20,386 nt of DNA. Source: a virus. Of the stretch, positions 1,648 through 20,386 are shown in pieces (within the stretch, counting starts at the first letter, position 1; every line of letters starts with the position of its first letter). The translations under genes and the position numbers were made by a program. Below the pieces are notes generated by a model. The model had not been told where the DNA came from, made no database searches, and worked only from the letters and a program-made list of their open reading frames with translations. Where the stretch lies: positions 1 to 20,386 of IMG/VR virus record IMGVR_UViG_3300027779_000207; one strand, given 5' to 3'.

Positions 1648-4600
1648 TATCCTCTACCCTTAGTACCTTGTTGATTCAATAATCCACCAGGTCTCATTTC
1701 TTGTTGTAAGTGTTGCTGTACTAAGCCACCAATAGATCTTCCGAGTCCTTGCATAGCTCCGTCGCCTTGTGTTTGTGTTTGTCCTTGTCCGCCAGACATA
1801 TTAACAGTAACATTTACTGTATTTTGTCCACCGCCGCCGTTTAAGTGTACAGGAATAGATTTGTCGTTTCCTAAAGGAATTACTGCTTCATTACCGTGTA
1901 GGGTTGCTTGATAGCCTGACTGAGGTCCGCTAGCTACTCCACCATACGCAAATGATTTACCACTCGGTGACATAATTCCTCCATATCTACCTGCGGGTAG
2001 TCCTGGAAGTCCCATTGCTCTTAACGCAGTCATAGCGGCAGCTGTCATATAAGCGGCTGCCAAATCTGCAAGTACTTGTTTCATCACGCCTTTCATAGCG
2101 TCTCCGAATGATTGAGTACCATCTAGCAATGCTTGGAATAAACTTTCAAATCCACCTCTCATAATGTCACTAGTCTTATTTGCTAGGTCTAATTCGATAT
2201 TTAGTCCTGCTTGTGCATCAGCTTGTTCTTTCATTACCTCTAATTTATTTCTCTGTACTACCACTCCGTCTTGTAGAATCGACACTTCTTGTAGTGCAGC
2301 TTGTGCAGCTGTTAGTCCTTCAGCATTTAATGACTGATTTAAAAGTTTTGATTGAGGAGTAATATTATTCACACCAAAACCTGGTAGCATGCCCGGAGCT
2401 CCTCCAGTCATATTACTTACATTTGCTCCCTGATTTACTATCTTATCTGCTCTTGCAGCTGCAAGTAAAGAGCCGGCCTGCTTGCTTTGAAGTGCCATAA
2501 TTTCTTGACGAAGTTTTAATTGGTCTTCCACAGACTTAGTTATAGCTGCTTCCATTTGTACAGCTTTTTCTTTATCGTGTCCCTCTATAGCTATAAATTC
2601 TGCTAAGTCTAGTCTTGCATTCTTTTCTTTTTCTAGCAATTGAGTATGTTTCTCTTCCATATCCAGAACTTGTTTTTGTGCTAGCACATTCTTCGCAAAC
2701 TTGCCTGCGGTTAGGTCCATAAGCCTTTTTCTTTCGGCAGCACTAGTTGCTGTTTTTGCTGTTTCTAAGGCGTGTTCTTCAGTTAGTCTGAGTCTTCTTT
2801 CGGCTTGGGTGTTTGCTAGATTTCCAAATTTGACTTCGAGTGCTGTTTGTGTTGTTTGTGCCTTAGAGGTCTTCAACATCTCTCTTTTCTGTTCCACTAA
2901 GAACGCGGCTGATTTTTTCTGCTGTGGTGAAGAATCGTCTGTAATTGCTTTCTCTGCTGTTAGTGCCATTTCTAAATCAAGTTGTTTTTGTTTTTGATTG
3001 TTTATAGCTTTCTCATTCTTTATATTATTAAAGGTATTTTTAGTGACAGCATCTGATTGCATACCCCTAGACGCTAGTTGAGTTTGAATTGAAAGATTCT
3101 TAAGAGATATCTCCATTGAGGTATTCTGGAAGCCTTTCATTTTCTTCATTAGAGCAATTTGTTTTACCTGTTCATCTGTATATAGCTTTTCTTGATCGTT
3201 CGCTTCTACTTGAGTTTGTAAGGCGTCGTTTAGTGCTTTTTGTGCACCTGCTTCATCGAGATCGCCTAGTCCTTGCCCTCTGAGTGACCTACTCATATCT
3301 CCTTGGCTCATACCAAACTGTTTTTCAAGCAAGGCATTGTTGTCATTATATGTTTTAGAACTTGCGTTTCCAGTCTTTGCTCTAAAAGCCTTTTGAGCCG
3401 CTCTCATAGCTTCAGCTCTTGCTTTTTTTGTTTTGTTTGTCTGAACTTCTGCTAATTTTGCCTTAGCTGCATCTACTCCAGTATCTGCAGTTCCTACTGC
3501 CAGGCTACCCATTGCTAGCATAGAAGTAGAGTTGTCTGTCATAGTTTTGAGGTTTTCAATTTGACCCGAAAAAGGAAGTTTTGCAGCTGATCCTGCTAAC
3601 TGTTGTAGCGATTGAGATAAGGCTTTATTTGCTTGTGAGAAGTTCTTTGATGCAGCAGCTCCTGCTTGCATTTGCTTCCCTAAGTCCATTACTCTTTCAC
3701 CTATTGAATCTTTGCCGCTAGGAATCTTGTTTTTACCTGCGACGAGATCCATAACTTCTTTCAATTCTTTAGGGGCTCCTGATAAATCTGACAAACCTTG
3801 AAGAGAGGATGTTATTCCAGCTAGGGCGGCTTCTTGTGCTTCTGGGTCTTTTATGGTTAAAGCTTTGTTGTAATCAGCCAGCACTTTAGCTATATCAACG
3901 GAACCAAAAGCTGAACCTATTTGTTCTATAGTTCCTCTAAACCCTAAAAGTCCTGCTCGCTGGACCTCTATCATATTACCTATTTCTGATGTTAGACCCG
4001 TATATCTCTCTTTAATGCCTTCGGCGAGTTTCTTTTCGGCTTCTGCTGCCTCATCTACACCTTTAATCCATGTATATAAAGCTTTTACTGCTTCAAAGAT
4101 CATAAGTGCAATACCGATCCAACCCATCAGTTTCATAGCCCCATTCATTGCTCTTGAAGCCATCTTTGTAACTGCTACCATTTGCATCTGTGTCTTTTTA
4201 TAGAACGCAGTTGTTCCAGCATATAAAGCTCTTGCTCTGTATTGTTGTCGAGTTATAAATCCCTGTCTTTTGCCTAAAGAGGCATTGAGCGCAATATCTT
4301 GGTCGGTCAGGAATCTTCTATAATCCGCTAACTGCCTTTTGTTCATATTCTTTGCAAAACCAGTTCCAGCTTGTAAATGCTTCTTTCGCATATTTATTTG
4401 TCGTTGAGACATCTGACCGCCAATCTTACCGTCTGCACCTTTAATCTTATTTTTCTTCATGTAATCATTGTCAACTAAACCTTCAGCACCTTTACCACTT
4501 GCGCCACTTAATGCGGCTTTTGCTCTTTGAGCTTCGTCTGCGGCTTCTCCAGCAGCAGTAGCCGCTATCTTATAGTTTGCCGAAGCGGCAACTCCCATTG

Positions 4601-5531
4601 CAGCAAAGTCTGGTAATATAGATTTAAGGATTGGCGCTAGGAATAGCGTTAGAGCGCCTACTAGAGCGTAGACGTTTTTAGAGGCGAACTGCATTATTGG
4701 TATCATAAATTCTGCAGTACCTTTTTGAATTTTCATTACAAGTTCGTCAAATGCTACTGCGAACTGTTGTAACGCAAAAGCACTAGGATCCATTATCTTA
4801 GTAATAGAACCAAATTTTGCTTCTGCCTGTCCTAGAACTTCATTAGCGACCGCCTGAGATTTCTCAAACTGTGTTAAATCGGCTACGTTTTTCTGAATAG
4901 ATGTAGCATATGCTTTCAATGCAGGTTCTAGTCTCAAAATGATACCAAGTTCGTCTAGTAGTTCTGGTTCGGCTTTTGTTATACCTCTTGTAAGACGGTT
5001 AAAAGAATCAGTCATGTCCCTACCAAGGGCAAGAGATGTATTCTTGGCGGCTACACCAATTTGTTCTAACTGACCCGCGCTTAGGCCCGCAGCTGTACCA
5101 ATAGCGGCTGCTTGTGCGGCTTCTTTAAATTGAATCATGCCACCGGTAGCGGCTTGTATATCGTGAGTTAAGGACTTGTATGCAACACCTGTGGTTGCTC
5201 CGAAGGCTGCTTGACCTTCGATAAGGTTTCGCATCTCCATAGATCCTTTTAGGAATTGGAACGCGGCTGAAACAGCAAATACTTGAGCAGCAATGGTTGC
5301 ATAGACAGCAACAATACCACCTTGCATGGTCTGTGCTTGCTTACTGAAGTTTTTAGTAGCGTTAGAAGATTGTTGGGTTACCCCTTTCATTCTTCTGTCA
5401 GTATTTTGGGAAGCTCCTCCCAATTTGTCCATACTCTTAGCAGCTTTCTTTGTTTTTTGCTCTAATAGTTTTAAGGACCCGTCGTCGCTAACGGTAAATA
5501 CTAGTTGTCCGCCTTGAATCTTTTTAGCCAT
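1647..5531 (-). CDS. Tail tape-measure protein
   Basis: At 1294 residues this is the largest gene in the window, and it lies directly after the tail chaperone pair, the standard place for a tape measure. Hydrophobic stretches near residues 71-95, about 275-310 and 462-492 fit the membrane-insertion segments of these proteins. Long Ala/Gln/Lys-rich helical regions fill the middle. The C-terminal part (about 1184-1225) has the motif series YGGVASGPQSG and GNEAVIPLG, close to the end of lambda-type tape measures, then a Gly/Gln-rich tail. Using the general rule of about 0.15 nm per residue, the tail would be near 190 nm; this is an inference. The ATG start lies two bases after the preceding stop. 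The protein is expected to wind inside the tail tube, set its length, and leave during DNA injection. Confidence 0.93.
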   Translation of the reverse strand: MAKKIQGGQLVFTVSDDGSLKLLEQKTKKAAKSMDKLGGASQNTDRRMKGVTQQSSNATKNFSKQAQTMQGGIVAVYATIAAQVFAVSAAFQFLKGSMEMRNLIEGQAAFGATTGVAYKSLTHDIQAATGGMIQFKEAAQAAAIGTAAGLSAGQLEQIGVAAKNTSLALGRDMTDSFNRLTRGITKAEPELLDELGIILRLEPALKAYATSIQKNVADLTQFEKSQAVANEVLGQAEAKFGSITKIMDPSAFALQQFAVAFDELVMKIQKGTAEFMIPIMQFASKNVYALVGALTLFLAPILKSILPDFAAMGVAASANYKIAATAAGEAADEAQRAKAALSGASGKGAEGLVDNDYMKKNKIKGADGKIGGQMSQRQINMRKKHLQAGTGFAKNMNKRQLADYRRFLTDQDIALNASLGKRQGFITRQQYRARALYAGTTAFYKKTQMQMVAVTKMASRAMNGAMKLMGWIGIALMIFEAVKALYTWIKGVDEAAEAEKKLAEGIKERYTGLTSEIGNMIEVQRAGLLGFRGTIEQIGSAFGSVDIAKVLADYNKALTIKDPEAQEAALAGITSSLQGLSDLSGAPKELKEVMDLVAGKNKIPSGKDSIGERVMDLGKQMQAGAAASKNFSQANKALSQSLQQLAGSAAKLPFSGQIENLKTMTDNSTSMLAMGSLAVGTADTGVDAAKAKLAEVQTNKTKKARAEAMRAAQKAFRAKTGNASSKTYNDNNALLEKQFGMSQGDMSRSLRGQGLGDLDEAGAQKALNDALQTQVEANDQEKLYTDEQVKQIALMKKMKGFQNTSMEISLKNLSIQTQLASRGMQSDAVTKNTFNNIKNEKAINNQKQKQLDLEMALTAEKAITDDSSPQQKKSAAFLVEQKREMLKTSKAQTTQTALEVKFGNLANTQAERRLRLTEEHALETAKTATSAAERKRLMDLTAGKFAKNVLAQKQVLDMEEKHTQLLEKEKNARLDLAEFIAIEGHDKEKAVQMEAAITKSVEDQLKLRQEIMALQSKQAGSLLAAARADKIVNQGANVSNMTGGAPGMLPGFGVNNITPQSKLLNQSLNAEGLTAAQAALQEVSILQDGVVVQRNKLEVMKEQADAQAGLNIELDLANKTSDIMRGGFESLFQALLDGTQSFGDAMKGVMKQVLADLAAAYMTAAAMTALRAMGLPGLPAGRYGGIMSPSGKSFAYGGVASGPQSGYQATLHGNEAVIPLGNDKSIPVHLNGGGGQNTVNVTVNMSGGQGQTQTQGDGAMQGLGRSIGGLVQQHLQQEMRPGGLLNQQGTKGRG

Positions 5532-5533
5532 AG

Positions 5534-5959
5534 TTAATTTGCTTTTGTTCGCCTCTTATCGGCGTCTTGCTTACGTTTTAGTTCAGCATTGATATTTATC
5601 GTGTTTGAACCGTCTATGTACTTCAAGAAAAAGCATGTAGTCTTTTTGTCAACTACACCTTGTATATTTAATAGGTCATTTAAAGGAGACCAGTCCTTTC
5701 CAAAATAAGAGCCCGAAGCTCCGTCCCATCTGTCTGGCAGCATTGAATGTACAACAAAAGCTTCTTGTACCTCCAATGGAAAAGTATCCAATTCTACTGG
5801 CATTTCATCTGGGTCCGGCTCTTGGCCCAATTGATGCTTCATTTGTAAGTAAGCATCAACAGTCATTTGATCGCTAAAGAAGCGACCTATTTGAGCAAGT
5901 GCCCAGGCTACTTGCTCTTGGTAAAATTTTCTAATTCGCCAACTTGTTCTGTTACCCAA
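5534..5959 (-). CDS. Tail assembly chaperone extension (gpT-like), made by -1 frameshift
   Basis: This frame overlaps the end of the upstream chaperone gene by 52 bases and lies just before the tape measure, as lambda T does relative to G. Its only upstream start candidate is a TTG at 5959 with no Shine-Dalgarno sequence, so I do not think it is translated alone. Read through the frameshift site, translation would switch at TAC (5923-5921). It would add 129 residues to the first 144 of the upstream protein, giving a fusion of about 273 residues. In lambda the equivalent gpGT fusion recruits tail tube subunits to the tape measure and is absent from the finished virion. The sequence has an N-terminal helical region and a Lys/Arg-rich C-terminus; gpT regions are poorly conserved. 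Confidence 0.8.
   Translation of the reverse strand: MGNRTSWRIRKFYQEQVAWALAQIGRFFSDQMTVDAYLQMKHQLGQEPDPDEMPVELDTFPLEVQEAFVVHSMLPDRWDGASGSYFGKDWSPLNDLLNIQGVVDKKTTCFFLKYIDGSNTININAELKRKQDADKRRTKAN
5893..5929 (-). promoter_or_regulatory. Programmed -1 ribosomal frameshift signal
   Basis: On the minus strand the heptamer A AAT TTT occupies 5929-5923, in the correct phase relative to the upstream frame (GAA AAT TTT ACC), and so fits X XXY YYZ. Five bases later a perfect 8-bp stem begins: GAGCAAGT (5917-5910) pairs with ACTTGCTC (5900-5893) around a 9-base loop. The zero-frame stop TAG (5910-5908) follows five codons after the slip site. Slip site, spacer, stem and position between the two tail chaperone frames all match known G/GT frameshift signals. 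Confidence 0.88.
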
Positions 5960-6354
5960 GTATCAAAATCGCCTGAATTCTTCATGAGTACTTCTACGTT
6001 CTCTGGAGAAAAGTCTAGCATTTGATCTTCTTGTTCAGGAGTTAAATCTCCTAGTAGTAACATATTTTTGGCATAACCAAGTTTAAAGCCTGTCCAGCCT
6101 TTAATTACGGCTGTGGTATATTCAGTAAGAAACTTATCGTCATCCATTTTTTCTTCGTAGCCTCTAGTCTTCTTATTGAATACTTGAGATACGCAACGGT
6201 TTCTAAGTTTCATTAACTCTTCTCTAGCTAGATAACAAAGTTTTACTTTGAAATCGTCACAGCCAGGATAGTCAAATTCTACTGTTTTTGTTGGAGTCAT
6301 TAGACTCTTTAGTGAAACAGCTTTTACTGCTTCTTTTTTTACTATATCATTCAT
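5908..6354 (-). CDS. Tail assembly chaperone (gpG-like)
   Basis: This 148-residue protein lies between the tail tube gene and the tape measure, in the place of lambda G. It begins with a tube-substrate-like segment containing DYPGCDDFKVKL and continues with AVIKGWTGFK and SPENVEVLM, a pattern seen in phage tail assembly chaperones. It ends five codons after a -1 frameshift heptamer, so most ribosomes should make this form and a minority the longer fusion. Its role would be to keep tube subunits and tape measure in an assembly-ready complex. No clear Shine-Dalgarno sequence precedes the ATG, only an A-rich tract downstream of the terminator-like hairpin at 6374-6402. Translation may therefore be modest or depend on readthrough transcripts. 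Confidence 0.85.
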   Translation of the reverse strand: MNDIVKKEAVKAVSLKSLMTPTKTVEFDYPGCDDFKVKLCYLAREELMKLRNRCVSQVFNKKTRGYEEKMDDDKFLTEYTTAVIKGWTGFKLGYAKNMLLLGDLTPEQEDQMLDFSPENVEVLMKNSGDFDTWVTEQVGELENFTKSK

Positions 6355-6373
6355 TTGTTTTTTAAAAATCCAT

Positions 6374-6402
6374 AAAAAGGCGAGTAACCGAAGCTACCCG
6401 CC
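6374..6402 (-). terminator. Rho-independent terminator after the tail tube gene
   Basis: On the minus strand a 10-bp stem (two G-T pairs) closes a TTCG loop with a C-G pair: GGCGGGTAGC / GTTACTCGCC at 6402-6379. Five T residues follow immediately (6378-6374). It begins 11 bases after the tail tube stop codon. Because essential tail genes lie downstream with no new promoter seen, termination is probably partial. Confidence 0.85.
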
Positions 6403-6412
6403 GTAAGTTAAG

Positions 6413-7810
6413 TTATGAGCTGTAAACTATGCTCAATTCGTTAGCACTGCTAGAAGCGGTTGCACTCGAAAGGTCTGCTGGTAAAGCATGGAAATTAACA
6501 TCTACACTAATTACGTCTTCAATCGAATGAGTCGGTAATTCTAGATGACAATTTGGTAATGCCACAGCTACTTTCGGTGAGTTCGCGCCACCAATACTAA
6601 ATGTCATGTTGAAGCTGTTTGTAATAGTACTCGTAGCTTCGTGTAGGTCTTCTAAAAGATCTTGCGAGCCATTTACCGCACTATTTAGGTAACAAGTAAA
6701 GTTACCTGAAACATTTCTTGTTCCCATGACGTGTCCTAAGGGCTGATTAACAGTTCCTAGAGTTTCTGGTGTTAAGTAAGTCAAACTATTTTCAATAGAA
6801 ATATTACCACCTGTGAGTATCACATTATAAGTTGCATCTGCTGCACCGTATTTTGCTTCAAAAACTGTACCAGTACCTATAGCGGCAACTGATCCTCTTG
6901 TGAAGATAGTTCCGACAGCACTGCTACTTGCACCCACGTTAGTTACTGTAAAGTCAGTAGTTCCTGCGACTGCAATTTTATATACTCTGCCTTCTACCAT
7001 TGTTGTAGCATTGACTGCTGTTGCTTCAAATCCAGCTGCGCCAGACCCGACAGAAACATCAGATGCTATAGCTAATGAAGTAAGCTTTTGTCTAATAAAG
7101 TTTGAAGTACTTGATATTCCTTCATCGATTAGACCTTTTGTTGTAGTACCTGCCGCAGCTGTGTTTAACTGTGCGACTTCACTAATTTTTTTACCTTGAC
7201 CAGACCAAGCAACTTGTGCCAAACCTTCAATGTCAAAATCTATTGACGCAGTACCGATTGAACAATCACTAATTTTATAAACTGTGACGCCATCTGTGCC
7301 TGTGTCGTACGTTGCAGACGTACTATCTTTTGCTGCTCCTAATACAAAGAACAGATCAAAAACACCAAGTGCTACTTTATTTGAGTTCTGAAAGTTAAAT
7401 GTCTTCGGTTCCCAAGTTGCTATAGACTGTACATCTGTTGCTGCTACTCCTAGTCCATAGCTCTCTGCAGACATTGCTGCCCATAGTGGTCCTTCTACTG
7501 CAAATGTCTTTGCGTTACCTGCATGTTGCTTAGTTACAAATGTGTCGCCCGCACCACTAGTGGTTGGTCGCATATAAGTACTAAAACTCCATTCTGCTGG
7601 TGCGAAAGAGTCATTAAACATTGCTCTTCCTCTCTTGCTGTTACCCGCTGAGTCAGCTGCTTCGCTCAGAGTAATCTCTGAACTGTTTGTAGCCTGACTA
7701 AAGGAGTAACCGTCTAGTACTGGTAATTCATAAAGAGCATCAGTGCTACCTGCTACAGTCCCTTTGAACTTCATGAATACTTTGGTATCTCTACTAAAAT
7801 GAAATGCCAT
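6413..7810 (-). CDS. Major tail tube protein
   Basis: This 465-residue protein sits between the tail terminator and the chaperone pair, the usual position of the tail tube subunit. Its N-terminus (KVFMKFKG, then ALYELPVLDGYSFSQ) and the segment FSTYMRP are typical of siphovirus tube proteins of the TP901-1 or lambda gpV type. The C-terminal third (NVSGNFTCYLN, NMTFSIGG, SVDVNFHALP) is also typical. Residues about 268-322 form a separate beta-rich, Gly/Thr-rich segment with VYKIAVAGTTDFTVTNVGA. It looks like an added domain, probably displayed on the tail surface. An AGGAG ribosome binding site lies seven bases before the ATG. A strong hairpin terminator follows the gene, consistent with high expression of an abundant subunit. 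Confidence 0.87.
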   Translation of the reverse strand: MAFHFSRDTKVFMKFKGTVAGSTDALYELPVLDGYSFSQATNSSEITLSEAADSAGNSKRGRAMFNDSFAPAEWSFSTYMRPTTSGAGDTFVTKQHAGNAKTFAVEGPLWAAMSAESYGLGVAATDVQSIATWEPKTFNFQNSNKVALGVFDLFFVLGAAKDSTSATYDTGTDGVTVYKISDCSIGTASIDFDIEGLAQVAWSGQGKKISEVAQLNTAAAGTTTKGLIDEGISSTSNFIRQKLTSLAIASDVSVGSGAAGFEATAVNATTMVEGRVYKIAVAGTTDFTVTNVGASSSAVGTIFTRGSVAAIGTGTVFEAKYGAADATYNVILTGGNISIENSLTYLTPETLGTVNQPLGHVMGTRNVSGNFTCYLNSAVNGSQDLLEDLHEATSTITNSFNMTFSIGGANSPKVAVALPNCHLELPTHSIEDVISVDVNFHALPADLSSATASSSANELSIVYSS

Positions 7811-7872
7811 TATTTTTCTCCTAATATTCTCTGGAAGAGCCTTACTAAATGTTTATTCAGCTTGGGCTTTTC

Positions 7873-8337
7873 CTAGTATTGAATCTCTACGATGACTTCT
7901 CCGACACCGAGAGGCTCCAAAACGCCTTCGTCTGTATCTATGCTTAAGATTGTAGTCTTTGCAGTAGAATGAGACGTATTTGTTGAATCTGTATACGTTA
8001 AAGGATCATTATCTTCAAGTACAGTTTCAACGTCTTCAAGTAGTTCTTCTAGTGCTAAAATGACGTCATCGTTGTCGTTCACATAGCACCTGATTGTTAC
8101 TCGTAAAAATCTAAATCGGAAACCACCGCCTTCATACTCGCGTGTTTCCTGTCCAGCTCCAACTTGAAGTGCGGGGAAGTCTGTAACTTCGTCCCAGAAC
8201 CTCAGTCTTGGCTCGACACTTTGAACGGAACTCCTATAAGGATATGACCCATTCAAACTTTCATACAACTTGTCTGCGATTGCTCCTACTATGGATCGTC
8301 TACGCGTTGAGTGTGCTCTAGCTGTAGTTGAGTCCAT
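7873..8337 (-). CDS. Tail terminator protein (gpU-like)
   Basis: The 154-residue protein has the pattern of small siphovirus tail terminators. It has an N-terminal helix, then WDEVTDFPALQVGAG followed by beta strands with FRFLRVTIRCYV. A helix follows with ALEELLEDVETVL, and a final strand reads EPLGVGEVIVEIQY. In lambda the equivalent gpU caps the growing tail tube and provides the surface that joins the head. It is coded directly before the tube gene and overlaps the preceding structural gene through a TAATG junction, which fits. The 62 bases between its stop and the tube gene hold only a weak imperfect hairpin and the tube gene's ribosome binding site. The assignment rests on pattern and position rather than on an invariant motif. 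Confidence 0.75.
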   Translation of the reverse strand: MDSTTARAHSTRRRSIVGAIADKLYESLNGSYPYRSSVQSVEPRLRFWDEVTDFPALQVGAGQETREYEGGGFRFRFLRVTIRCYVNDNDDVILALEELLEDVETVLEDNDPLTYTDSTNTSHSTAKTTILSIDTDEGVLEPLGVGEVIVEIQY

Positions 8338-9872
8338 TAGTTTCTCCTAATCGAGGAAAGTTGTCTTCCTAGTATTCCTTGTGCAAGTTCTCGTAAACTT
8401 GCTCCTATTATTTTTCGAGGGTCTCTTTGAGTACTCCCCTGTTTGTTTCCTGGCTCAAAAGTTTCATAAGGCTCTCTTTGATAAGTATAGTCTACATGTG
8501 TTCCACCTCTTGGTCCAATATTTACATTCTCAACCCTGGCTGAGTTTGCAAATCTACCAGTCCTAAATTGTAGTGCTGGTGAGGTCATTTTACTCGCTAC
8601 CATTGCAGGTAGTAATTGATTTAGCAGATTCCTTAAAGCTATTGGACTTTCCGAAGTTTTAGCCCCTGCTTGCCCTCTTTTCTTTTTACTCTTTTTAGGT
8701 AACGCTGAGGCCATTAACATTTTAGTCATGTTCTTTGACTTCTTACCTTTAACTTTTTTATTCCTAACTTCGTTAGAGGACATCTTGCCTCTAGCTGCTA
8801 AAGCGTGTAATTTCTTATTAACTTTAAATCTCATATCGGCTTTTGTCTTATGAGGAAATAAATTATCAATAACTATCTTAGGTAAGTTACGTTGTACATG
8901 CTCTTCTATACTAGCAGACCCTCTTAACTTTATTAGCTCGGGAGCAAACTTGGTGGAGGCTCTTATAATATCCCTTATTAAATCTGCCTGTATCCTATCT
9001 AAAATTTTAGTAAGATTATTGGCAAGTCCACCGCCTGTACCTGCGTCCCATTCTTTTAAAGCTTTTGTATACTGGCTACCTATCTTACCAGGGCCATAAC
9101 CTGTACCTAGTGCAAATTTAATATGGATAATATTGTCTACTTCTATTACCCCCGCCTTAGACCTGCTCTTATCCAACATTTTTAAAGGAACTCTATCAAA
9201 ACCTAGTATACATTGTATATGGTCAGAAAGTCTAGTAAGTACTAGATGGTATAATGAGTCGGAGCTAGATCGCTGATCTATGCCGTTCAATATATCTTCT
9301 AAACTACCAGCACTTGACATTCCTTTCGATTCTCTGTGGGCAGCTGTGTCTTTTTCAACTTTTAACAAACCCCCTGTAGTTATAGGGTCGTTTGCTCTAG
9401 GAGTAGCTACGTCTGAGTGATGCCCGTGCATTGTTGACTGTAACTTCTCTCTCTGGGCCTTAGTTAAGGAACTAGCTACTATGGCTACCGCATCTCTCTT
9501 AGCTGCTCTTATAGCCTTATCAGCTGAAGAACCTGCTTTTTGAAAACTTGCAGACTGCTTATTAAGCTGAGTTACAACAAATGCGTTATTTTCCATCGCA
9601 AAATGTATTCCTTGTCCGCTACTATCTTTTTTAAACCTGTTTTTTAAAGTTTTAAACATTGCAGCTGTCATACGTCTGCCTTTCCCAGTAACTGTGATTC
9701 CGCCAAGAGTACTTACTTCGCCTTGAATCCAACTACACCATTCTAATACTAAATTTTTATCAAATATGTATTGTTCAACTCCAACTGCTGATAGTCTTGC
9801 TTTTGCATCTCTATCAATCTTTTGTCCAAATTGCCTTGAAGCAATAAATGTATTTATTGCATTTAGTGCCAT
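8337..9872 (-). CDS. Large neck-region virion protein, gp10-like C-terminus
   Basis: At 511 residues this is much larger than usual head-closure or tail-completion proteins, yet it lies exactly where they are coded: between the head-tail connector and the tail terminator, joined to both by TAATG overlaps. The C-terminal part (about 437-475) has TGRFANS and VDYTYQREPYETFEPG, reminiscent of HK97 gp10-like proteins, whose cores read TGRL followed by VDYA and a glutamate-phenylalanine-glycine segment. The N-terminal 340 residues are unlike anything I recognise. A highly basic region spans about 350-405 with KVKGKKSKN and KKSKKKRG, which could contact DNA or RNA. It is probably a virion component at the neck, but its exact role is unknown. 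A fusion of an extra domain to a gp10-like core would explain the length. Confidence 0.6.
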   Translation of the reverse strand: MALNAINTFIASRQFGQKIDRDAKARLSAVGVEQYIFDKNLVLEWCSWIQGEVSTLGGITVTGKGRRMTAAMFKTLKNRFKKDSSGQGIHFAMENNAFVVTQLNKQSASFQKAGSSADKAIRAAKRDAVAIVASSLTKAQREKLQSTMHGHHSDVATPRANDPITTGGLLKVEKDTAAHRESKGMSSAGSLEDILNGIDQRSSSDSLYHLVLTRLSDHIQCILGFDRVPLKMLDKSRSKAGVIEVDNIIHIKFALGTGYGPGKIGSQYTKALKEWDAGTGGGLANNLTKILDRIQADLIRDIIRASTKFAPELIKLRGSASIEEHVQRNLPKIVIDNLFPHKTKADMRFKVNKKLHALAARGKMSSNEVRNKKVKGKKSKNMTKMLMASALPKKSKKKRGQAGAKTSESPIALRNLLNQLLPAMVASKMTSPALQFRTGRFANSARVENVNIGPRGGTHVDYTYQREPYETFEPGNKQGSTQRDPRKIIGASLRELAQGILGRQLSSIRRN

Positions 9873-10468
9873 TACACAACTACCCTGTATAGGTCTAGTA
9901 CTCTTTTGATATGATCAGGAAAGTCAGTACTCATTCTCATTCCAGAAGTGCCTTGGTTTTGTAACGTTGCACCTCCAAGAGACTGTCTTACCTTGTGTTC
10001 ATCTTTCAAATAGTAAGTAACTAAATCGAATACAGCTAGTTTTAAATCTTTAGGAGTCTCAGTGTACCCCGCATTATACGTAATTTTTACTGATCCAACT
10101 CCTTGTGCCCAAGGTCTTGTATTACCTTGTTCATTTGTTCTTATAATTGCGTCAGACTCATAGTCTACGTAATATTCATAGTTCCCTGTCGTTAAAGTGG
10201 CATAAGCACCACTATAAGCAGTTCGTTCTTGTACAATATCTACTGCGGTTAACGGACACTCGCTGACAATAATCGTTGAGGTGTAGTTATCACTAATAGA
10301 AAATGTTTCCACTTTGTTTGTACTAATATAATCGACAAATGAAGTTCCACAATACTTTTTTACAAGATCGGATATCTGAGGTACTAGAACGTTTAGACGA
10401 TCGTCGTCTTTCTCGCCCCTGATTCCTTCAGCGTCTTTGTATTCATGCGTATGTATTAAATCTGCCAT
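9872..10468 (-). CDS. Head-tail connector / adaptor protein (gp6-like)
   Basis: The 198-residue protein follows the capsid gene and precedes the neck genes, the place of the HK97 gp6-type adaptor that forms a ring under the portal. An N-terminal helical region with LNVLVPQISDLVKKYCGTSF fits the family, as does the middle beta region ending GSVKITYNAGYTETPKDLKLAVFDLVTYYLKDE and the C-terminal helix DHIKRVLDLYRVV. Many adaptor proteins share the Gly-Tyr-Thr then Pro-x-x-Leu-Lys pattern. Its start lies just beyond the hairpin at 10492-10509, and no good Shine-Dalgarno sequence is visible. It may therefore be made at much lower levels than capsid. The stop overlaps the next start (TAATG). Confidence 0.75.
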   Translation of the reverse strand: MADLIHTHEYKDAEGIRGEKDDDRLNVLVPQISDLVKKYCGTSFVDYISTNKVETFSISDNYTSTIIVSECPLTAVDIVQERTAYSGAYATLTTGNYEYYVDYESDAIIRTNEQGNTRPWAQGVGSVKITYNAGYTETPKDLKLAVFDLVTYYLKDEHKVRQSLGGATLQNQGTSGMRMSTDFPDHIKRVLDLYRVVV

Positions 10469-10527: not shown

Positions 10528-12552
10528 TTAACTAGCTTTGAACTTATATGCCCACTTAGAAGTAGCGCCTTCAATGAGTTCAGCGAAGCCGATTCTCTGT
10601 GAAGCAACTAGTACTCTTCTTTGGTTTGCAACTTCGTAATCGGACTCAATGGTAATTCCTCTGAGTCTTGGCATTACGTAGTTTCTCGCATATACTGCGA
10701 TTGCTCCAAATCCATTGGCTGCTTGAGCAGGGAATTCGTCACAAAGGAGAACCTTTGAACCAAATACCTGACCAATCTCACCAGTGAGTTTAGTAGCCAT
10801 ATCACCAACTAGATTAGCATCTTGGAATTCTGCGTCTTCTAGTAACTGGAAGTATGCACTTTGTGAAACAATATATGTTACATCTGCAGGATTAACCCCG
10901 TATTTGCCCATATTCTTTCTCATGTTTAACAACTCAGCTGCAGTTACAGTATCAGTTGCAACAGCTGTTGCTGATTGCGTGAAGTCACTGTCGTCTGCTG
11001 CCATCTTGACAAGACCATCAAAAGTTCCTGATGTATAAACACCAGTAGAATTGTTACCTAATAGTAACGCATTCTCAATACCTTTTGCGTGTGATCTTAC
11101 AATTGATTCCCTAATTAAAGGAAGGATTGGTAAAATTGCATCTTCTTCAGTTTCATTACCTAAGTATGATTGTGAAATAAGTTTATGAGTTGATAGAACT
11201 TTTTCAGTTAAATCTACTCCGCCGTACGGTGCACCCTGGCTGTCTCCAGTCTGGGATAAGTTACCGTGTGGAGATGATCCACTGGCTGTTTGGGCTGTCG
11301 CGAATTCAGCATATCCACTATCTGGTAGAATTGGGATAATCATATTAGCGGAATTCATTTGAATTTCTCTAAATAGCGGCGCTAATACTAGCGAGCTTTG
11401 AATATCTCTTTCTACGTTAGTTGATACGATTTGTTCGAAGTCCGCACTAGAAACGCCAACACCTGAGTGTGCGTTAATTTTTTCCATTACGCTTTTAGCG
11501 AATGGTGTGTCGAATCCTCTACCGGTTGAAAGACCTAAGATCTTTGCATCTACGATATCTCCTTCAAACGCTTCTTTCCAATTTTTGTTACCACGATCTT
11601 GGAAAATTCTTTTTGATTCGCGCATAGCTTGAATCTCTTCTGATCTTTCCATTAGATCTTTTTGTAGTTCTTTAACAACTGACTCTAGGTCACCTTGTCT
11701 CTCTTCTACTTTTCTAGCAACATCATTTATTAGTGCTTCTGCACCACTGATTCCTGCTTTCACAACAATCTTTTGTTTTTCCTGCTCTGCTTCCACATTA
11801 GCTTTCTCAGCAACGTCTGCATCAGCTTGCGCTTTTGTTTCTGCTTGCTCAGCGGCTTTTTGTTCAGCTTGCTTCATTGCGATGCTAGTAGCAGTTTGAT
11901 CTGCAACTTGCTTAGCGAATGCTTCAAGGTCGAACTCAGGGCTCACAGGAGTTTTCTTTTCTTCTGACATAATAGTCTCCGTTTTGTCGGCTTGCGCCTT
12001 GCTTGACTGCTCTATCTCTGCGTTTGCATCGATTGAGTTAGTCTTAATAAAGTCTTTTTTGAACGAGTTGTACTCTTCCATGTTATCGAAGGATTTCGCT
12101 AACGAGAAGACCGCGTTTTGGTTACAAGGAACCGAAACAACAGACACTTCAAACAGTTCTGCGTCCTTTATTCTATATCCGTCGGTTTCAGGTAAGTATT
12201 CAGCGTCCTTGACTTTGAAACCAACAGAAAAAGCTCCAAGTACGCCGTCTTTAATAAGATCTTTGATATCGCCTGCAGATTTTGAAATTCGAGCAGTTAG
12301 CTCTAATCCATTCTCTGAGACTCCAATTTCCTTCGCCCGACCAATTGGTCGATCGTAGTTATGGTTAAATAGGATTACTGGATTATTTTTAAAATTATCC
12401 AATCCACCCTTTAACCAAGCATCACATTCAATAGTGTCACCAGCTCTGTCGATATGGTTCGTACTAGCTGATCCTTTGATATCTAGTCCGCCATCTTCGT
12501 CTTCTGATAACATCTTGAATGAGTTTGTCCAGTGAAAAATTTTCTCAGACAT
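10528..12552 (-). CDS. Fused prohead protease and HK97-fold major capsid protein
   Basis: This 674-residue protein joins two normally separate functions. Residues 1-155 match the S78 prohead protease family: FNHNYDRPIG with probable catalytic His64, GAFSVGF with Ser109, and the following ELFEVSVVSVPCN segment. Residues about 200-325 are charged, Ala/Glu/Gln-rich and probably coiled coil, resembling the scaffolding delta domain removed during maturation. From about 330 onward the sequence looks like an HK97-type capsid subunit (LAPLFREIQMNSANMIIPILPD, ending GFAELIEGATSKWAYKF). The gene starts after a strong AAGGAGG ribosome binding site formed by the end of the preceding gene. Met195 has its own GGAG site, so capsid may also be made alone. 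A hairpin terminator follows. The domain calls are firm; the two-product model is inferred. Confidence 0.92.
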   Translation of the reverse strand: MSEKIFHWTNSFKMLSEDEDGGLDIKGSASTNHIDRAGDTIECDAWLKGGLDNFKNNPVILFNHNYDRPIGRAKEIGVSENGLELTARISKSAGDIKDLIKDGVLGAFSVGFKVKDAEYLPETDGYRIKDAELFEVSVVSVPCNQNAVFSLAKSFDNMEEYNSFKKDFIKTNSIDANAEIEQSSKAQADKTETIMSEEKKTPVSPEFDLEAFAKQVADQTATSIAMKQAEQKAAEQAETKAQADADVAEKANVEAEQEKQKIVVKAGISGAEALINDVARKVEERQGDLESVVKELQKDLMERSEEIQAMRESKRIFQDRGNKNWKEAFEGDIVDAKILGLSTGRGFDTPFAKSVMEKINAHSGVGVSSADFEQIVSTNVERDIQSSLVLAPLFREIQMNSANMIIPILPDSGYAEFATAQTASGSSPHGNLSQTGDSQGAPYGGVDLTEKVLSTHKLISQSYLGNETEEDAILPILPLIRESIVRSHAKGIENALLLGNNSTGVYTSGTFDGLVKMAADDSDFTQSATAVATDTVTAAELLNMRKNMGKYGVNPADVTYIVSQSAYFQLLEDAEFQDANLVGDMATKLTGEIGQVFGSKVLLCDEFPAQAANGFGAIAVYARNYVMPRLRGITIESDYEVANQRRVLVASQRIGFAELIEGATSKWAYKFKAS
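11968..11980 (-). promoter_or_regulatory. Internal ribosome binding site and start for capsid alone
   Basis: Within the fused gene, GGAG (11980-11977) lies six bases before an in-frame ATG (11970-11968, codon 195), exactly between the protease and scaffold-capsid parts. Starting here would give a 480-residue product beginning MSEEKKTP. Particles need hundreds of capsid subunits but few proteases, so an internal start makes sense. Confidence 0.7.
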
Positions 12553-12811: not shown

Positions 12812-14029
12812 TTATTCCTCTGCGGGTGGGGTTTCTTCTGGTCTGCCACCTTGCTCTGGATTTGCGGCCGATCCTGCAATATTTGCAGGAATTCGCGGTG
12901 TATCAAATCCGTCAATCTTCTCAAGTCTCAACGCCTCCCTTGCTTCATTCGGTGTTAATATTCCCGTGTTTACAAGTGTAGCGTAGTAAGCTGCCTGGTC
13001 TTTCAACTCAGGCTGAAGTGCTGGCGTATCGCTAACATCTTCGTTAAGTTTAAAACCGAAGAACCTCTCGAAAGCATATCCCATCTTTCTAATGATAGGT
13101 AATATGGTTTCTAAATAGTATAGACGGTGGTTGGGTCTAATGTTTGCATTATTCCCTCCGTCCAATAAAATAGGTGGTATACCCATCGCTTCTAAAATTA
13201 TCTTCTCATTCGACGTTATTGCCGCTTGAAAGTCTAAATCTTTGAAGTTAACTTCCGTTAGGTTTTCCACTTCCAATCCACCATCTAGGAATAACGGTCT
13301 ACGTCCTCCTGATTGTGGGTTGTATCTAGCGACCCAAGCCTGTAACATTCTTTCTTTGATTTTCTCCGAAAGTGTGTTAGGTGACTTAAGTACTAAACCT
13401 GGTACTGCTCCGTTCTTGAAGAAGTTATCTTGGAATCTTCTCATACTTCCAAGTAACTGCATGGTTCTCCATGCTGGCTTCAATCTAGGAACTCCTCTAT
13501 AAATAGAGTTAAAACTGTTCTCTTTAATGTGAATGATTTCACTAGGACTATACTCGATACCGGAGTCGTAAACATATTTATCTACGTAGGTACTTTCATT
13601 AGTCTCGATTGTTACGTGTTCTGCTGGCAAATGATAGAGATGTACTCCATCATAGTATATAAAGATATTGCCGTCTATAAGTAGATCAACTATTAAGTTT
13701 CTCTTAAAGGCGCTAATATCTTGAAAAGGATTTGGTTCTACGTTAAGTAGTAAATTGAGCTTAGTTCTTCTCATGTTTTTTACTACACCAGTAACACCTT
13801 GTATCTTCTCGCCTACATCGAATGGTATATCCGCAGCGTCGTCCACTATCATGTTGACTGCTCGGTTTACCACTTCTAATTGCTCGTAAGCATTTCTGTA
13901 GTTAGTTGTTATTTCACGACTAGAAAGAGTACCACCTTCATCATTGGCGATATGAGACTGAGAAGGGTTTAGTTTCTCGTAGTCCTCGCTAAAGGTTGTT
14001 CTTCCTATAATCCTGTCATACCATGCCAT
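12812..14029 (-). CDS. Portal protein (HK97 family)
   Basis: The 405-residue length and sequence match HK97-type portals, the 12-subunit ring through which DNA enters and leaves the head. Typical segments are the N-terminal VNRAVNMIVDDAADIP helix, IIHIKENSFNSIYRGVPRLKPAW (written here only as a landmark between about 165 and 188), the FFKNGAVPG core, and the AMGIPPILLDG segment. The C-terminal LVNTGILTPNEARE is nearly diagnostic, being part of the GxLTxNEAR motif of this family. The start overlaps the HNH gene by 14 bases, and only a weak GAGAG ribosome binding site is visible, so translation is probably coupled. It lies two genes after the terminase, with a promoter between. Confidence 0.94.
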   Translation of the reverse strand: MAWYDRIIGRTTFSEDYEKLNPSQSHIANDEGGTLSSREITTNYRNAYEQLEVVNRAVNMIVDDAADIPFDVGEKIQGVTGVVKNMRRTKLNLLLNVEPNPFQDISAFKRNLIVDLLIDGNIFIYYDGVHLYHLPAEHVTIETNESTYVDKYVYDSGIEYSPSEIIHIKENSFNSIYRGVPRLKPAWRTMQLLGSMRRFQDNFFKNGAVPGLVLKSPNTLSEKIKERMLQAWVARYNPQSGGRRPLFLDGGLEVENLTEVNFKDLDFQAAITSNEKIILEAMGIPPILLDGGNNANIRPNHRLYYLETILPIIRKMGYAFERFFGFKLNEDVSDTPALQPELKDQAAYYATLVNTGILTPNEAREALRLEKIDGFDTPRIPANIAGSAANPEQGGRPEETPPAEE

Positions 14030-14458: not shown

Positions 14459-15757
14459 TTAGAAGCTAGTGGCACTTGTTTCGAACGAGTACATCGCATA
14501 GCGTAGTGCATCTGCCATATGAGAAGCATAGTTGTGTTTTGGCTTCTCTTTTAGTAAGTTAGGATTGGGATCCCACTGGTACTGATCAAGGGAGCTCAGA
14601 CTCTCATGACATGTCTGGTGAACTATTAGTGCGTCATTATCACAGATCGCTGCTACATGACCAATTCCATCAAGTACAGATTTCTTTGCGTTAATAGTAC
14701 TAATGTCGTAGTTTTGTGCAAGGTCAAATCTTGTTTGCTGTGCGGCTGAATCAATATAAATATAATCTATATTATACTTATGAATTAGTTTCTGTATCTC
14801 GATTGCGTGTTGTTCTGTGGTTCTTTCTGAGTTTAAGTATTCAGCTAATAGATAATACTTTCTAGCGTCCCAGTCGTAGGCAATTACACAGAAAGCTGTA
14901 GGATCTTTGAAACCTACGTCCATTCCTGCGAATACGTCCATGCCGGATAGGTCTAGCTCTGATAAATCCTGCTGGCACTTCTCCATGTTGAATCCCCATA
15001 CCTGGCCTTCAAATACATTGAAGTCTGCCATATACTCTTGATTAAATTCGGATTCAGACATTGTTTTTCTTGCTTCATGAATGTCCTGGTCTGAGATACG
15101 TGGGTTTTCATGGTAAGTAGCCTTGACACTTGCCCACTCTGGAAAGTCTCCTGAGTAACCTCTATACCAGAACTCTGCAAACCAATTGTTCCTACCACGA
15201 GGGGTAGAAATGAATATAGCTTTAGAGTTTTCTTTGTCTAGTGTAGGTCGTAGTGCGACGTTGAAAGCGTCCCTTCCATCCACGAGGGCAGCTTCATCAA
15301 AGATGATGAGATCATAGGACCTACCAACGACCGAATCCACTTGGTTAACCGATCCCATACGGATCGTAGAATTGTTTGATAATTGAATAACTTTATCTTT
15401 TGCATTGTCTTTAATTACTTCTAAATCAAAATGTTTGATTAAGGTTCTCTGAAGGTCGAAGGATATCTGGGACAATGAGTAGTTAGGCGACATCAATAGA
15501 ACATTGGTGTTTGGTACTAAACATAGTAGCTGAGCGATTACGTTCGCTATGTATGTTTTTCCTTGCCTACGGGATACTGCCGCAGTAACAAAACGATACT
15601 TCGGATTATTGATTGAATTGATAATAGCTTTTTGGGTACTATTAGGTTCTATTCCTAATAAGTCCATATAGCCATCTATTGGGAGTTTGATGAATCTGCG
15701 TTCATCGAAAGACATGAGCTCTTCGGCTGTGACGTCTTTTCTACTTATCTCTAGCAT
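14459..15757 (-). CDS. terL: Terminase large subunit
   Basis: This 432-residue protein is the DNA packaging motor and nuclease. The ATPase half has a Walker A-like SRRQGKT (62-68), Walker B LIIFDEAA (150-157) and coupling motif STPRG (184-188). The nuclease half has the expected acidic residues D280 in AGMDVGFKDPTA, D336 in IYIDSA, and D416 in HMADALRYA. Length and motif spacing are normal for siphovirus terminases. It overlaps the preceding 74-residue gene by one base (TAATG), while a strong promoter directly follows its stop. It is therefore the last gene of the first transcription unit unless transcripts run on. All key residues are present. Confidence 0.96.
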   Translation of the reverse strand: MLEISRKDVTAEELMSFDERRFIKLPIDGYMDLLGIEPNSTQKAIINSINNPKYRFVTAAVSRRQGKTYIANVIAQLLCLVPNTNVLLMSPNYSLSQISFDLQRTLIKHFDLEVIKDNAKDKVIQLSNNSTIRMGSVNQVDSVVGRSYDLIIFDEAALVDGRDAFNVALRPTLDKENSKAIFISTPRGRNNWFAEFWYRGYSGDFPEWASVKATYHENPRISDQDIHEARKTMSESEFNQEYMADFNVFEGQVWGFNMEKCQQDLSELDLSGMDVFAGMDVGFKDPTAFCVIAYDWDARKYYLLAEYLNSERTTEQHAIEIQKLIHKYNIDYIYIDSAAQQTRFDLAQNYDISTINAKKSVLDGIGHVAAICDNDALIVHQTCHESLSSLDQYQWDPNPNLLKEKPKHNYASHMADALRYAMYSFETSATSF

Positions 15758-16277: not shown

Positions 16278-16889
16278 CTAAAATGTCTTCATTAAAAAGA
16301 CTGATGCGCTGTCCATTACCTGGCCATGTCGGGCAGAGTCAAGAATTTCCATTCCCATTCTCCAACCTTTTACATCTTTTGAAATAGTAAGCATTTGATA
16401 CGTATCGTCATTTTCATAAATTGCATGACGTAGACTTAAGTCAGCCCAAGTAACTGTAGGCATCATTAAAGTGACTTCCTTATAGTTCTTGTCTGCATCG
16501 TCCATGTCAGTCCATACGCTCATCTGCACCCAGTGATTTCCACCTCTGACAAACCACTCTTCTTTGTGATCGATTGCTTTGTCGTCGTATCTATACTGAA
16601 TCAAACCGCCACCAACAGACCATTTGTCTGTTACTGCCATGTCGTATCCTGCATATAAATCATATTCGTAGCTAGCATCTCCGATGCCATCTACTTGTCC
16701 TACCCATGTGCCGACGTAAGCGCCGCCAATATTGTAGTTAGCCCAGCCTTGCATTGAATTACCGCCTATAGTTTGGCTCTCGCCTCTAAATAAGTAATCG
16801 CTGGCATAGCCGACTTCGCCTTCTACATTTCCTGCGTAAGATGTGATGCTCATTGAGCAGAGTATCAGTGCTGCTAATAGTTTATTCAT
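16278..16889 (-). CDS. Outer-membrane beta-barrel protein with signal peptide (Gcw_chp-like)
   Basis: The 203-residue protein starts with a clear signal peptide: MNKLLAALILC, then a hydrophobic core, and a likely signal peptidase I cut after SYA at about residue 19. The mature part is made of amphipathic strands rich in Tyr, Trp and Gly. Its beginning, VGYASDYLFRGESQT, and the later YVGTWVGQVD and YEYDLYAGY match the proteobacterial outer-membrane family known as Gcw_chp. It ends in Phe, as many outer-membrane barrels do. Family members are usually chromosomal and poorly characterised. Here it is embedded in a phage late operon, overlapping the preceding gene by ATGA. It should be exported and inserted in the host outer membrane. 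Receptor masking, altered permeability or help in lysis are possible roles, all inferred. Confidence 0.82.
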   Translation of the reverse strand: MNKLLAALILCSMSITSYAGNVEGEVGYASDYLFRGESQTIGGNSMQGWANYNIGGAYVGTWVGQVDGIGDASYEYDLYAGYDMAVTDKWSVGGGLIQYRYDDKAIDHKEEWFVRGGNHWVQMSVWTDMDDADKNYKEVTLMMPTVTWADLSLRHAIYENDDTYQMLTISKDVKGWRMGMEILDSARHGQVMDSASVFLMKTF

Positions 16890-17646: not shown

Positions 17647-17964
17647 TTACCATTTGACTTTGTCGGCCCAATAAGCGGCGGACATTTTACCTCTCGCAAT
17701 ATTCTTTGCGTGCCTTGCTTTAAAACTCTTTCTCTTTGCTTTCATTCGAGCTGACTCACCAGCTTTTGGTTTCCCTGCTGTGCTAGCTCCTTTCTGTCCA
17801 AAACGAATAGTCTTAATTCGACTTCCAACCTTAGCCACAACAATGTGCGACTTAGTCTTGTGTCCAGGTGTTCTTTTGGGTTTATTAAATCCTTTTACAC
17901 CTGCTCTTTTGATTCTTGAGTCCTTTTTACGACCCTTGGGTTTACTTCTTCTTCTTACTGCCAC
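17647..17964 (-). CDS. Conserved Lys/Arg-rich phage protein (DUF6321-like)
   Basis: The 105-residue protein is extremely basic. Its N-terminus is full of Arg and Lys. The core has NKPKRTPGHKTKSH, VAKVGSRIKTIRFGQKG and the C-terminal block KRKSFKARHAKNIARGKM ending SAAYWADKVKW. I recognise this layout from many marine phage genomes, and I believe it matches the family named DUF6321. The name is from memory and the function is unknown. DNA or RNA binding is likely from charge alone. The start is a GTG at 17964, with GAGG upstream, and it lies 23 bases inside the preceding gene in another frame. Its stop overlaps the ribosome binding site of the next gene. Confidence 0.82.
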   Translation of the reverse strand: MAVRRRSKPKGRKKDSRIKRAGVKGFNKPKRTPGHKTKSHIVVAKVGSRIKTIRFGQKGASTAGKPKAGESARMKAKRKSFKARHAKNIARGKMSAAYWADKVKW

Positions 17965-18821: not shown

Positions 18822-18837
18822 GTGTATAAATATACAC
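18822..18837. promoter_or_regulatory. Perfect palindrome at the predicted transcript start
   Basis: GTGTATA (18822-18828) and TATACAC (18831-18837) form a perfect 7-bp inverted repeat with a two-base centre. It lies directly downstream of the -10 box at 18850-18845, at about +1 to +16. It may be an operator for a repressor that blocks this promoter. A two-base loop makes an RNA hairpin less favourable, though possible. Confidence 0.5.
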
Positions 18838-18844
18838 AATTTAA

Positions 18845-18886
18845 ATTATACCAAAATTATAAGGTCATGTCAAGAACTATTTTTGT
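18845..18886 (-). promoter_or_regulatory. Consensus sigma70-type promoter for the mini-gene to terminase unit
   Basis: On the minus strand TTGACA (18873-18868) and TATAAT (18850-18845) are exactly 17 bases apart. The block ACAAAAATAGTTCTTGACA (18886-18868) is identical to that at 14448-14430, and TATAATTTAA is shared too, while the spacers differ. The upstream part of the block contains the last codons and TAG stop of the cyclase gene. It would drive the genes from 18798 to the terminase. Confidence 0.9.
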
Positions 18887-20386
18887 ATGGTGTATATTTT
18901 GACTGGCTCAGTCTTTCCTTTAACAATTACCTCATCTATAAACTGATACTCATAGCCATCGACTCTACTATGTTCACTAATAATTAAGTCTGTCTCATAT
19001 TGCTTACAGCTACTCTCTAGGCGAGCAGCGAGATTAACAGCGTCCCCGAGAACACTATAGTCGAAACGACTACTACTACCCATATTACCGACAACACACG
19101 GTCCTGTGTTGATTCCGACTCCTGTATGGATTTCAGGGCTTCCTTCAGATTTGAGAACAATATTTAATTCCTCCAAAGCTACTCTCATTTCAAGAGCTGC
19201 TGCTGTTGCCTTCCTTGCGTGATCTTCTACATCTAGAGGCGCGTTCCAAAAAGCCATGATGCAGTCCCCCATGTACTTATCAATAGTTCCCTCGTGCTTC
19301 ATAATGATGTCACTCTGATTAGTTAAAAAACGATTTACCAGAGCCACTAGTTTTTGAGGGTCTGACTGGTAAAATTCCGAAATCGGGGTAAATCCTCGAA
19401 TATCCGAAAAAAGAAAAGTTAGTTGTTTTGTCGACCCACCCAATCTCAGTAATGATGGGTCTTTTTGGAGTGCTTCTACCTGGGCAGGGCTAACATAAGT
19501 CCCGAATTGTTGTTTGATCTGTAATCTCAACAAGAACTGTGTAATAAAACTCTTGAAGGTTACAATACTCCAGAATAAAAACAGTATCACTAGCGATCCG
19601 GAAACGTCAAACAAGTACGAAGACTCAACAAGCTTCCAGGAAGTGTACCCTAGGCCTCCTAATAGTGTTAAAATGACGGGTAGGCTAAAGTATATAGAAG
19701 CAGAAGCTACAACTATTAGTACCATTCCGATAAGTACTACTCCGAGTTGTGCTAAAGAGCTCCAAGATGGTTGTGAAAGTGCATTTCCGTTAACAATTGT
19801 ATTAAGAACGGTTGCTTGAATATCGTGGGGGTACATTGTACCACCCGGAGTTGCTACAAGAGGAGCCACTCCCTCTGCAGTTACCCCAAATATTACAAAT
19901 GGGGCAGGGATTGGCTCTTTCATAAACTGTGCAGCTGTCTGTCTGTAGAACTTTGTGTTCCAATTTGCGTAAACTAGTCCATTTTCATTGGTTGCTAGCT
20001 TTCCGTACTGTGGAAGGCGTACCCACTCTATACCCTGCTCGCCAGTTTTAATCTGGTAGCTAGGATCTCCTGTTCCTAGTCTTAGCATTTCTAGTGCGAA
20101 GCTTGGATACAGCTTTTCTTGGGAGGATATTACTAGTGGCAGTCTTCTTACTACTCCGTCTAGTTCGGGATTTGTGCTTATTAGCCCCACCCCTTGTGAG
20201 GTTAGTTTTGATCTTAAAATTCCTGGGTAATTGTATAGCCATTTGGTTGGGTCTCCATTACCTAACTGCGCCGTACCGACGTGCGGGCCTTGTTCAGAAC
20301 TTTGCGTGCTACCTATAAAAGATAACACAGTAGGTATTTGATTTAAATATGTTTGAAAGTATGCATCTTTGCCGTGGACGTCTTTA
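18877..20386 (-). CDS. CHASE2-domain membrane adenylate cyclase, class III (5' end cut)
   Basis: The frame runs open to the window edge, showing 502 residues; the start lies outside. Positions here count from the GTG codon at 20328. Residues up to about 180 fit the C-terminal part of a CHASE2 sensor (LDGVVRRLPLV at 57-66, FVIFGVTAEGV, then MYPHDIQATVLN). Three membrane spans follow at about 192-212, 213-232 and 243-262. A class III cyclase domain covers 300-483 with the full catalytic set: D309 in FSDIRGF, K351 and D355 in IDKYMGD, S425, N432 and R436 in DYSVLGDAVNLAARLE. Lys with Ser/Thr at the base-selecting sites points to ATP, giving cAMP, of the IIIb type. CHASE2 would face the periplasm and the cyclase the cytoplasm. 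The stop lies inside the phage-type promoter block. It could be phage-carried or a neighbouring host gene. Confidence 0.93.
   Translation of the reverse strand, partial: KDVHGKDAYFQTYLNQIPTVLSFIGSTQSSEQGPHVGTAQLGNGDPTKWLYNYPGILRSKLTSQGVGLISTNPELDGVVRRLPLVISSQEKLYPSFALEMLRLGTGDPSYQIKTGEQGIEWVRLPQYGKLATNENGLVYANWNTKFYRQTAAQFMKEPIPAPFVIFGVTAEGVAPLVATPGGTMYPHDIQATVLNTIVNGNALSQPSWSSLAQLGVVLIGMVLIVVASASIYFSLPVILTLLGGLGYTSWKLVESSYLFDVSGSLVILFLFWSIVTFKSFITQFLLRLQIKQQFGTYVSPAQVEALQKDPSLLRLGGSTKQLTFLFSDIRGFTPISEFYQSDPQKLVALVNRFLTNQSDIIMKHEGTIDKYMGDCIMAFWNAPLDVEDHARKATAAALEMRVALEELNIVLKSEGSPEIHTGVGINTGPCVVGNMGSSSRFDYSVLGDAVNLAARLESSCKQYETDLIISEHSRVDGYEYQFIDEVIVKGKTEPVKIYTIQK

Follow-up and report, generated by a model that had tools for sequence, protein, structure and literature searches.

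Why should a gene for a membrane-bound sensor cyclase lie beside the late genes of a tailed phage: does it belong to the virus or to a host chromosome, and what could its product do during infection? We addressed these questions using a stretch of 20,386 nucleotides, positions 1 to 20,386 of the IMG/VR record IMGVR_UViG_3300027779_000207 (hereafter the window), together with its relatives among viral contigs and bacterial genomes.

The Cyclase Gene and Its Setting

At the right end of the window, a minus-strand frame of 502 residues with no internal stops matches the Pfam CHASE2 (PF05226, E 2e-17) and Guanylate_cyc (PF00211, E 7e-22) profiles, both above their cut-offs; its best match among the solved class III adenylate cyclases has an E-value of 1e-35. 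The frame is still open at the end of the record. As full-length relatives have about 590 residues, some 87–89 N-terminal residues are absent from the window copy, namely the first transmembrane helix and the start of CHASE2, whose profile match begins only at position 102 of 257. The catalytic domain, in contrast, is whole. Thus, an earlier note that described a complete CHASE2 adenylate cyclase was right about the identity of the two domains and about the catalytic part, but the gene itself is 5′-truncated at the record end. The features of the gene are:

18877–20385, minus strand: CHASE2 class III adenylate cyclase, 5′-truncated, 502 of about 590 residues (PF05226, PF00211, phrog_35576, solved cyclases and full-length relatives)
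19723–20202, minus strand: periplasmic CHASE2 sensor domain, the Pfam-matched part (residues 62–221)
19504–19761, minus strand: three transmembrane helices and a signalling helix, approximate, transferred from the AlphaFold model of the cyclase of a relative (L066)
18883–19431, minus strand: class III cyclase catalytic domain with D328, K370, D374, S444, N451 and R455 (Pfam, solved cyclases and alignment)

Full-length relatives have a transmembrane helix at the N-terminus, and the AlphaFold model of the L066 cyclase (pLDDT 81.5) displays, in order, a transmembrane helix, CHASE2, three transmembrane helices, the signalling helix and the cyclase domain. Pfam and this model together give the layout of a CHASE2 receptor—a transmembrane helix, a periplasmic CHASE2 domain, three further helices and a cytoplasmic output domain—of which the truncated window copy lacks the first helix.

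The cyclase stands directly upstream of phage late genes on the same strand, as the earlier note had proposed. The landmarks of this operon are:

14459–15757, minus strand: T5-like terminase large subunit (Pfam and PHROG profiles; 48% identity to T5-like phages)
12812–14029, minus strand: portal protein (profile matches)
10528–12552, minus strand: fused prohead protease and major capsid protein (profile matches; about 33% identity to T5-like phages)
6413–7810, minus strand: T5-like major tail protein of a long non-contractile tail (27–30% identity to T5-like phages)
1647–5531, minus strand: tail length tape measure protein of 1294 residues (profile match)

Reading along the minus strand from the right end, the cyclase is followed by small genes, the terminase, an HNH protein, the portal and the fused protease/capsid protein, and then by head–tail connectors, the major tail protein, tail chaperones, the tape measure and minor tail proteins. 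The identities of the terminase, capsid and tail tube to those of T5-like phages therefore mark the virus as a T5-like phage with a long non-contractile tail. Two further genes lie between the cyclase and the terminase: a putative porin of the TorF/Gcw_chp family (16278–16889, minus strand; TIGR02001 above cut-off, PF09694), present in only some relatives, and a small Lys/Arg-rich protein (phrog_7595; 17647–17964, minus strand) that is up to 95% identical between phages. The latter gene changes place, lying instead inside the curli cassette described below in L005 (8368–8640), L017 (9459–9740) and other relatives. A scan of the window against Rfam returned no match.

Distribution of the Cyclase in T5-like Phages

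We collected a cyclase-anchored sample of 80 IMG/VR relatives, several of the locus counts below being drawn from fragmentary contigs. First, 77 of the 80 have the same terminase 1.3–5.0 kb past the cyclase and in the same orientation, and in the remaining three the contig ends less than 2 kb from it. Second, when the terminase gene (terL) was the bait, so that sampling was independent of the cyclase, the cyclase was present on 35 of the 36 contigs whose upstream DNA reached 4.5 kb or more, a figure that applies within the clade delimited by a terminase identity of about 80% or higher and that comes from contigs partly common to the cyclase sample. The one terL-anchored contig in which no cyclase was detectable, L196, has 7.6 kb of upstream DNA. 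Third, cyclase and terminase distances correlate (Mantel r 0.68), with 0 of 999 permutations reaching so high a value. The terL-anchored count and this correlation point to a long-standing, near-core cyclase in the T5-like clade.

Thus, the cyclase is a genuine phage gene of ocean T5-like phages. The window does end within the gene, but the opposite account, that of host DNA beside a prophage (offered in the earlier note) or of a chimeric contig, has a negligible probability and was rejected, since dozens of viral contigs, each assembled separately, show the same arrangement, and some of them extend over 65–75 kb and carry phage genes beyond the terminase. Nor is the gene without precedent in phages, as that note had supposed: Pelagibacter phage HTVC008M and Methylophilales phage Melnitz have annotated cyclases, and a cassette containing one has been published for podo- and myophages (PMC9599517).

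The Curli Cassette Upstream of the Cyclase

Wherever a contig reaches far enough upstream, the cyclase is the final gene of a cassette with the order csgF, csgG, curlin, FecR, curlin, cyclase. In long enough relatives, FecR is found upstream of the cyclase in 29/29, CsgG in 22/22 and CsgF in 21/21, all three scoring above their Pfam cut-offs; the order csgF, csgG, FecR, cyclase holds in 33/33, with curlin-repeat genes in between. The cassette escaped the first reading of the sequence because it lies past the record end, the window holding only its cyclase end. With the cassette upstream wherever it can be seen, alongside the shared late genes downstream and the terL-anchored count, the attribution of the cyclase to the phage gains a further line of support. 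We are accordingly close to certain that the cyclase closes a curli (type VIII secretion) cassette carried by marine T5-like siphoviruses.

This kind of cassette is already known. Wittmers et al. 2022 (PMC9599517) describe a curli/FecR/cyclase cassette in podo- and myophages that is expressed in metatranscriptomes; in HTVC023P-type podophages and pelagimyophages it has the same set and order, i.e., CsgF, CsgG, curlin, FecR, a second curlin and the cyclase. Compared with those published descriptions, the carriers here are T5-like phages with a long non-contractile tail and a near-core cyclase, and a histidine kinase upstream of csgF was not found in the small scanned subset of loci (Pfam scans of genes preceding csgF in L005 and L025 gave none). 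HTVC008M (AGE60353.1, 39% identity) and Melnitz (QZI94833.1, 36%) code for homologous full-length cyclases, likewise placed behind csgF-csgG-curlin-FecR in the order of the T5-like cassette, but both are T4-like myophages. What is new is the T5-like siphovirus lineage as a carrier in which the cyclase is near-core; the accessible parts of the published accounts, mainly open-access literature, contain no T5-like or siphovirus carrier.

A Conserved Promoter after the Cyclase Stop

Two elements lie immediately beyond the cyclase gene:

18845–18873, minus strand: sigma-70 promoter, TTGACA-17-TATAAT with an extended −10, starting 3–4 bases past the cyclase stop (consensus match)
18822–18837, minus strand: palindrome or hairpin GTGTATATTTATACAC just downstream of the promoter (stem search)

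The promoter matches 11–12 of the 12 consensus positions in 75 of 80 T5-like sequences at a nearly constant distance from the stop, a score found in about 2% of 130-bp windows drawn at random from these loci. A stem of six or more follows it in 49% of cases against 23% of shuffles, a modest excess, and its sequence varies between phages. Upstream of csgF we found no comparably strong promoter, the best scores being 8–10. Judging from these sequence patterns, the genes leading into the late operon appear to have their own start, with the cyclase ending the transcription unit of the cassette. Transcription of the cyclase and the late operon together from an upstream promoter alone is unlikely, given the conserved promoter that follows the cyclase stop.

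Active Site and Selection

All the residues expected of a class III catalytic site are present in the window cyclase, as the earlier note had claimed: the metal-binding aspartates D328 and D374, the purine-selecting K370, and the transition-state residues N451 and R455. In an alignment of 83 sequences the aspartate pair, the Asn and the Arg are invariant with a single exception, and K370 is retained in all 83. The second specificity position, at which an Asp or Thr would accompany the Lys in an adenine-selecting pair, is S444, a Ser in 82 of the 83, which corresponds to a Thr, close to Ser, in CyaB (PDB). Among pairs that differ, dN/dS ranges from 0.04 to 0.26 and is mostly near 0.1; by this measure the gene is under purifying selection. 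The intact residues and the low dN/dS are consistent with an active enzyme, in line with the suggestion of the earlier note that it may be active. The exception is the Melnitz cyclase (L083), where a Ser aligned with N451 sets it apart from the other 82 sequences; this enzyme may have lost or changed its activity. As Melnitz is an infectious isolate that has lost the catalytic Asn, catalysis is perhaps not always required.

FecR and Its C-Terminal Domain

The cassette FecR is predicted to comprise a signal helix, the FecR domain and a C-terminal domain built from short strands at regular intervals. In a Foldseek search, its model matched a PupR/FecR-type anti-sigma signalling domain (E 5e-4). 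Each of the 53 phage FecRs whose 3′ end is complete terminates in [IVLF]x[IVLF]xQ, the final Gln being invariant in a 27-sequence alignment, and the same ending is common in the cassette curlins (55 of 80 ORFs). Support for a curlin-like tail is limited to this pattern and the predicted strand spacing, since Foldseek of the FecR model returned no curlin match; with the pattern short and recognized post hoc, we treat it as a lead.

FecR genes also lie upstream of CHASE2 cyclases in several bacteria, so that the adjacency recurs. The tail pattern is shared by the FecR of one bacterial curli operon (L084, below) and is absent from the other listed bacterial FecRs near CHASE2 cyclases. The FecR of a second such operon (L166) is without it; hence the tail is not universal.

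Bacterial Counterparts and Phylogeny

The best bacterial match of the cyclase is on a Caulobacteraceae MAG contig (L084), as the last gene of a csgF-csgG-two curlins-FecR-cyclase operon (3947–10001) flanked by glycosyltransferase, TonB-receptor and sulfotransferase-like genes, as named from their translations. A csgF-csgG-curlin-FecR-cyclase operon (L166; 9476–15496) lies inside a 706-kb contig of genome G415 from the same order, Caulobacterales. Such operons were found in 2 of 398 genomes of the order; samples of the class (385 genomes) and phylum (398 genomes) yielded no further chromosomal operons, and a search of both with the cassette FecR recovered L084 again and nothing else. The two operons share the gene order of the phage cassette, their FecR and cyclase genes overlap, and their cyclases group with the phage versions; they differ in being chromosomal, in their higher GC and in the longer cyclase C-terminus. 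The C-terminal tail of the T5-like cyclases is shorter than those of both the bacterial and the Melnitz proteins. According to the abstract of PMC9599517, adenylate cyclase and FecR fall outside bacterial T8SS operons; L084 and L166 are exceptions to that statement.

In a maximum-likelihood tree with 39 other bacterial CHASE2 cyclases as the contrast set, the T5-like (28), myophage (2) and bacterial curli-operon (2) cyclases cluster together with an SH-aLRT of 100; the root of this tree is not fixed, and podophage sequences are absent from it.

Functional Readings of the Cassette

The explanation that we consider probable overall is that of a terminal cyclase of a phage curli cassette whose cAMP output is governed by FecR and CHASE2. 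On this model, curlins and the CsgG/CsgF pore would be produced in the infected cell, and FecR in the periplasm would touch the CHASE2 domain of the inner-membrane cyclase, a contact suggested by gene adjacency. Curlin export or the state of the envelope would then act through FecR and CHASE2 on the cAMP level of the infected cell, and cAMP might in turn act via a host effector, e.g., a CRP-type regulator. Two published systems bear on this. In Burkholderia, a FecR–CHASE2 histidine kinase operon controls biofilm (PMC5192318); like the phage cassette it places a periplasmic FecR beside a CHASE2 sensor, but its output is a kinase and response regulator, and curli genes are not reported. The cyclase CyaD1 of S. 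meliloti produces cAMP constitutively when CHASE2 is removed (PMC5498481).

The mechanistic parts of this model are less secure than the identity of the gene. Curli-coupled sensing by FecR and CHASE2 is a tentative proposal, slightly short of an even chance. The report of Melnitz cultures without clumping (PMC9004378) counts against the model. We hold a CRP-type host effector to be similarly conjectural: the cNMP-binding domain PF00027 was not found in 22 viral records, partly fragmentary and including HTVC008M and Melnitz, while control genomes were positive, and the effector would for this reason be the host's. A more specific form, in which the cassette is a self-contained curlin export line with a checkpoint—the curlin-like strand of FecR occupying or reading the CsgG path, signalling via CHASE2 and tuning host cAMP—seems to us rather unlikely.

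Similarly unlikely is a general host-takeover gene, whose cAMP would reprogram host carbon metabolism or receptor expression, the curli linkage being a historical relic. The conservation of the catalytic residues under purifying selection fits this account, as does the lack of a detected phage-coded effector, by which the output must act on the host. However, a cyclase that acted on its own should at least occasionally turn up away from the cassette, whereas FecR, CsgG and CsgF accompany it in every case open to view, across two unrelated types of phage and two bacterial chromosomes.

Somewhat less probable again is a device for lysis timing or envelope permeability that is built on the CsgG pore and triggered by the cyclase acting as sensor. 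The 2020 pelagimyophage paper (PMC7029224) and the 2022 Melnitz paper (PMC9004378) discuss sibling capture and lysis timing, the latter paper proposing such a device for Melnitz from CsgG/F models; but curlin repeat proteins are encoded in the T5-like loci as well, and a device consisting of the pore alone would have no use for them.

That the enzyme is a pyrimidine cyclase of the Pycsar kind, or serves as a decoy for Pycsar/CBASS defence, is very improbable: the PADLOC PycC models do match the catalytic domain (E 8e-28), but they span only the domain shared by class III enzymes, CHASE2 being found by Pfam; moreover, the enzyme has the purine-type Lys, its matches among solved structures are adenylate cyclases, and we identified no Pycsar effector among the genes of the cassette. 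We therefore set aside PycC as a domain-level match.

For the FecR- and CHASE2-sensed cyclase that we favor, the bacterial operons of the same layout make the link from FecR through CHASE2 to cAMP open to ordinary genetics. More generally, the cassette now extends to one more phage morphotype, and the near universality of the cyclase there speaks for a real role during infection.
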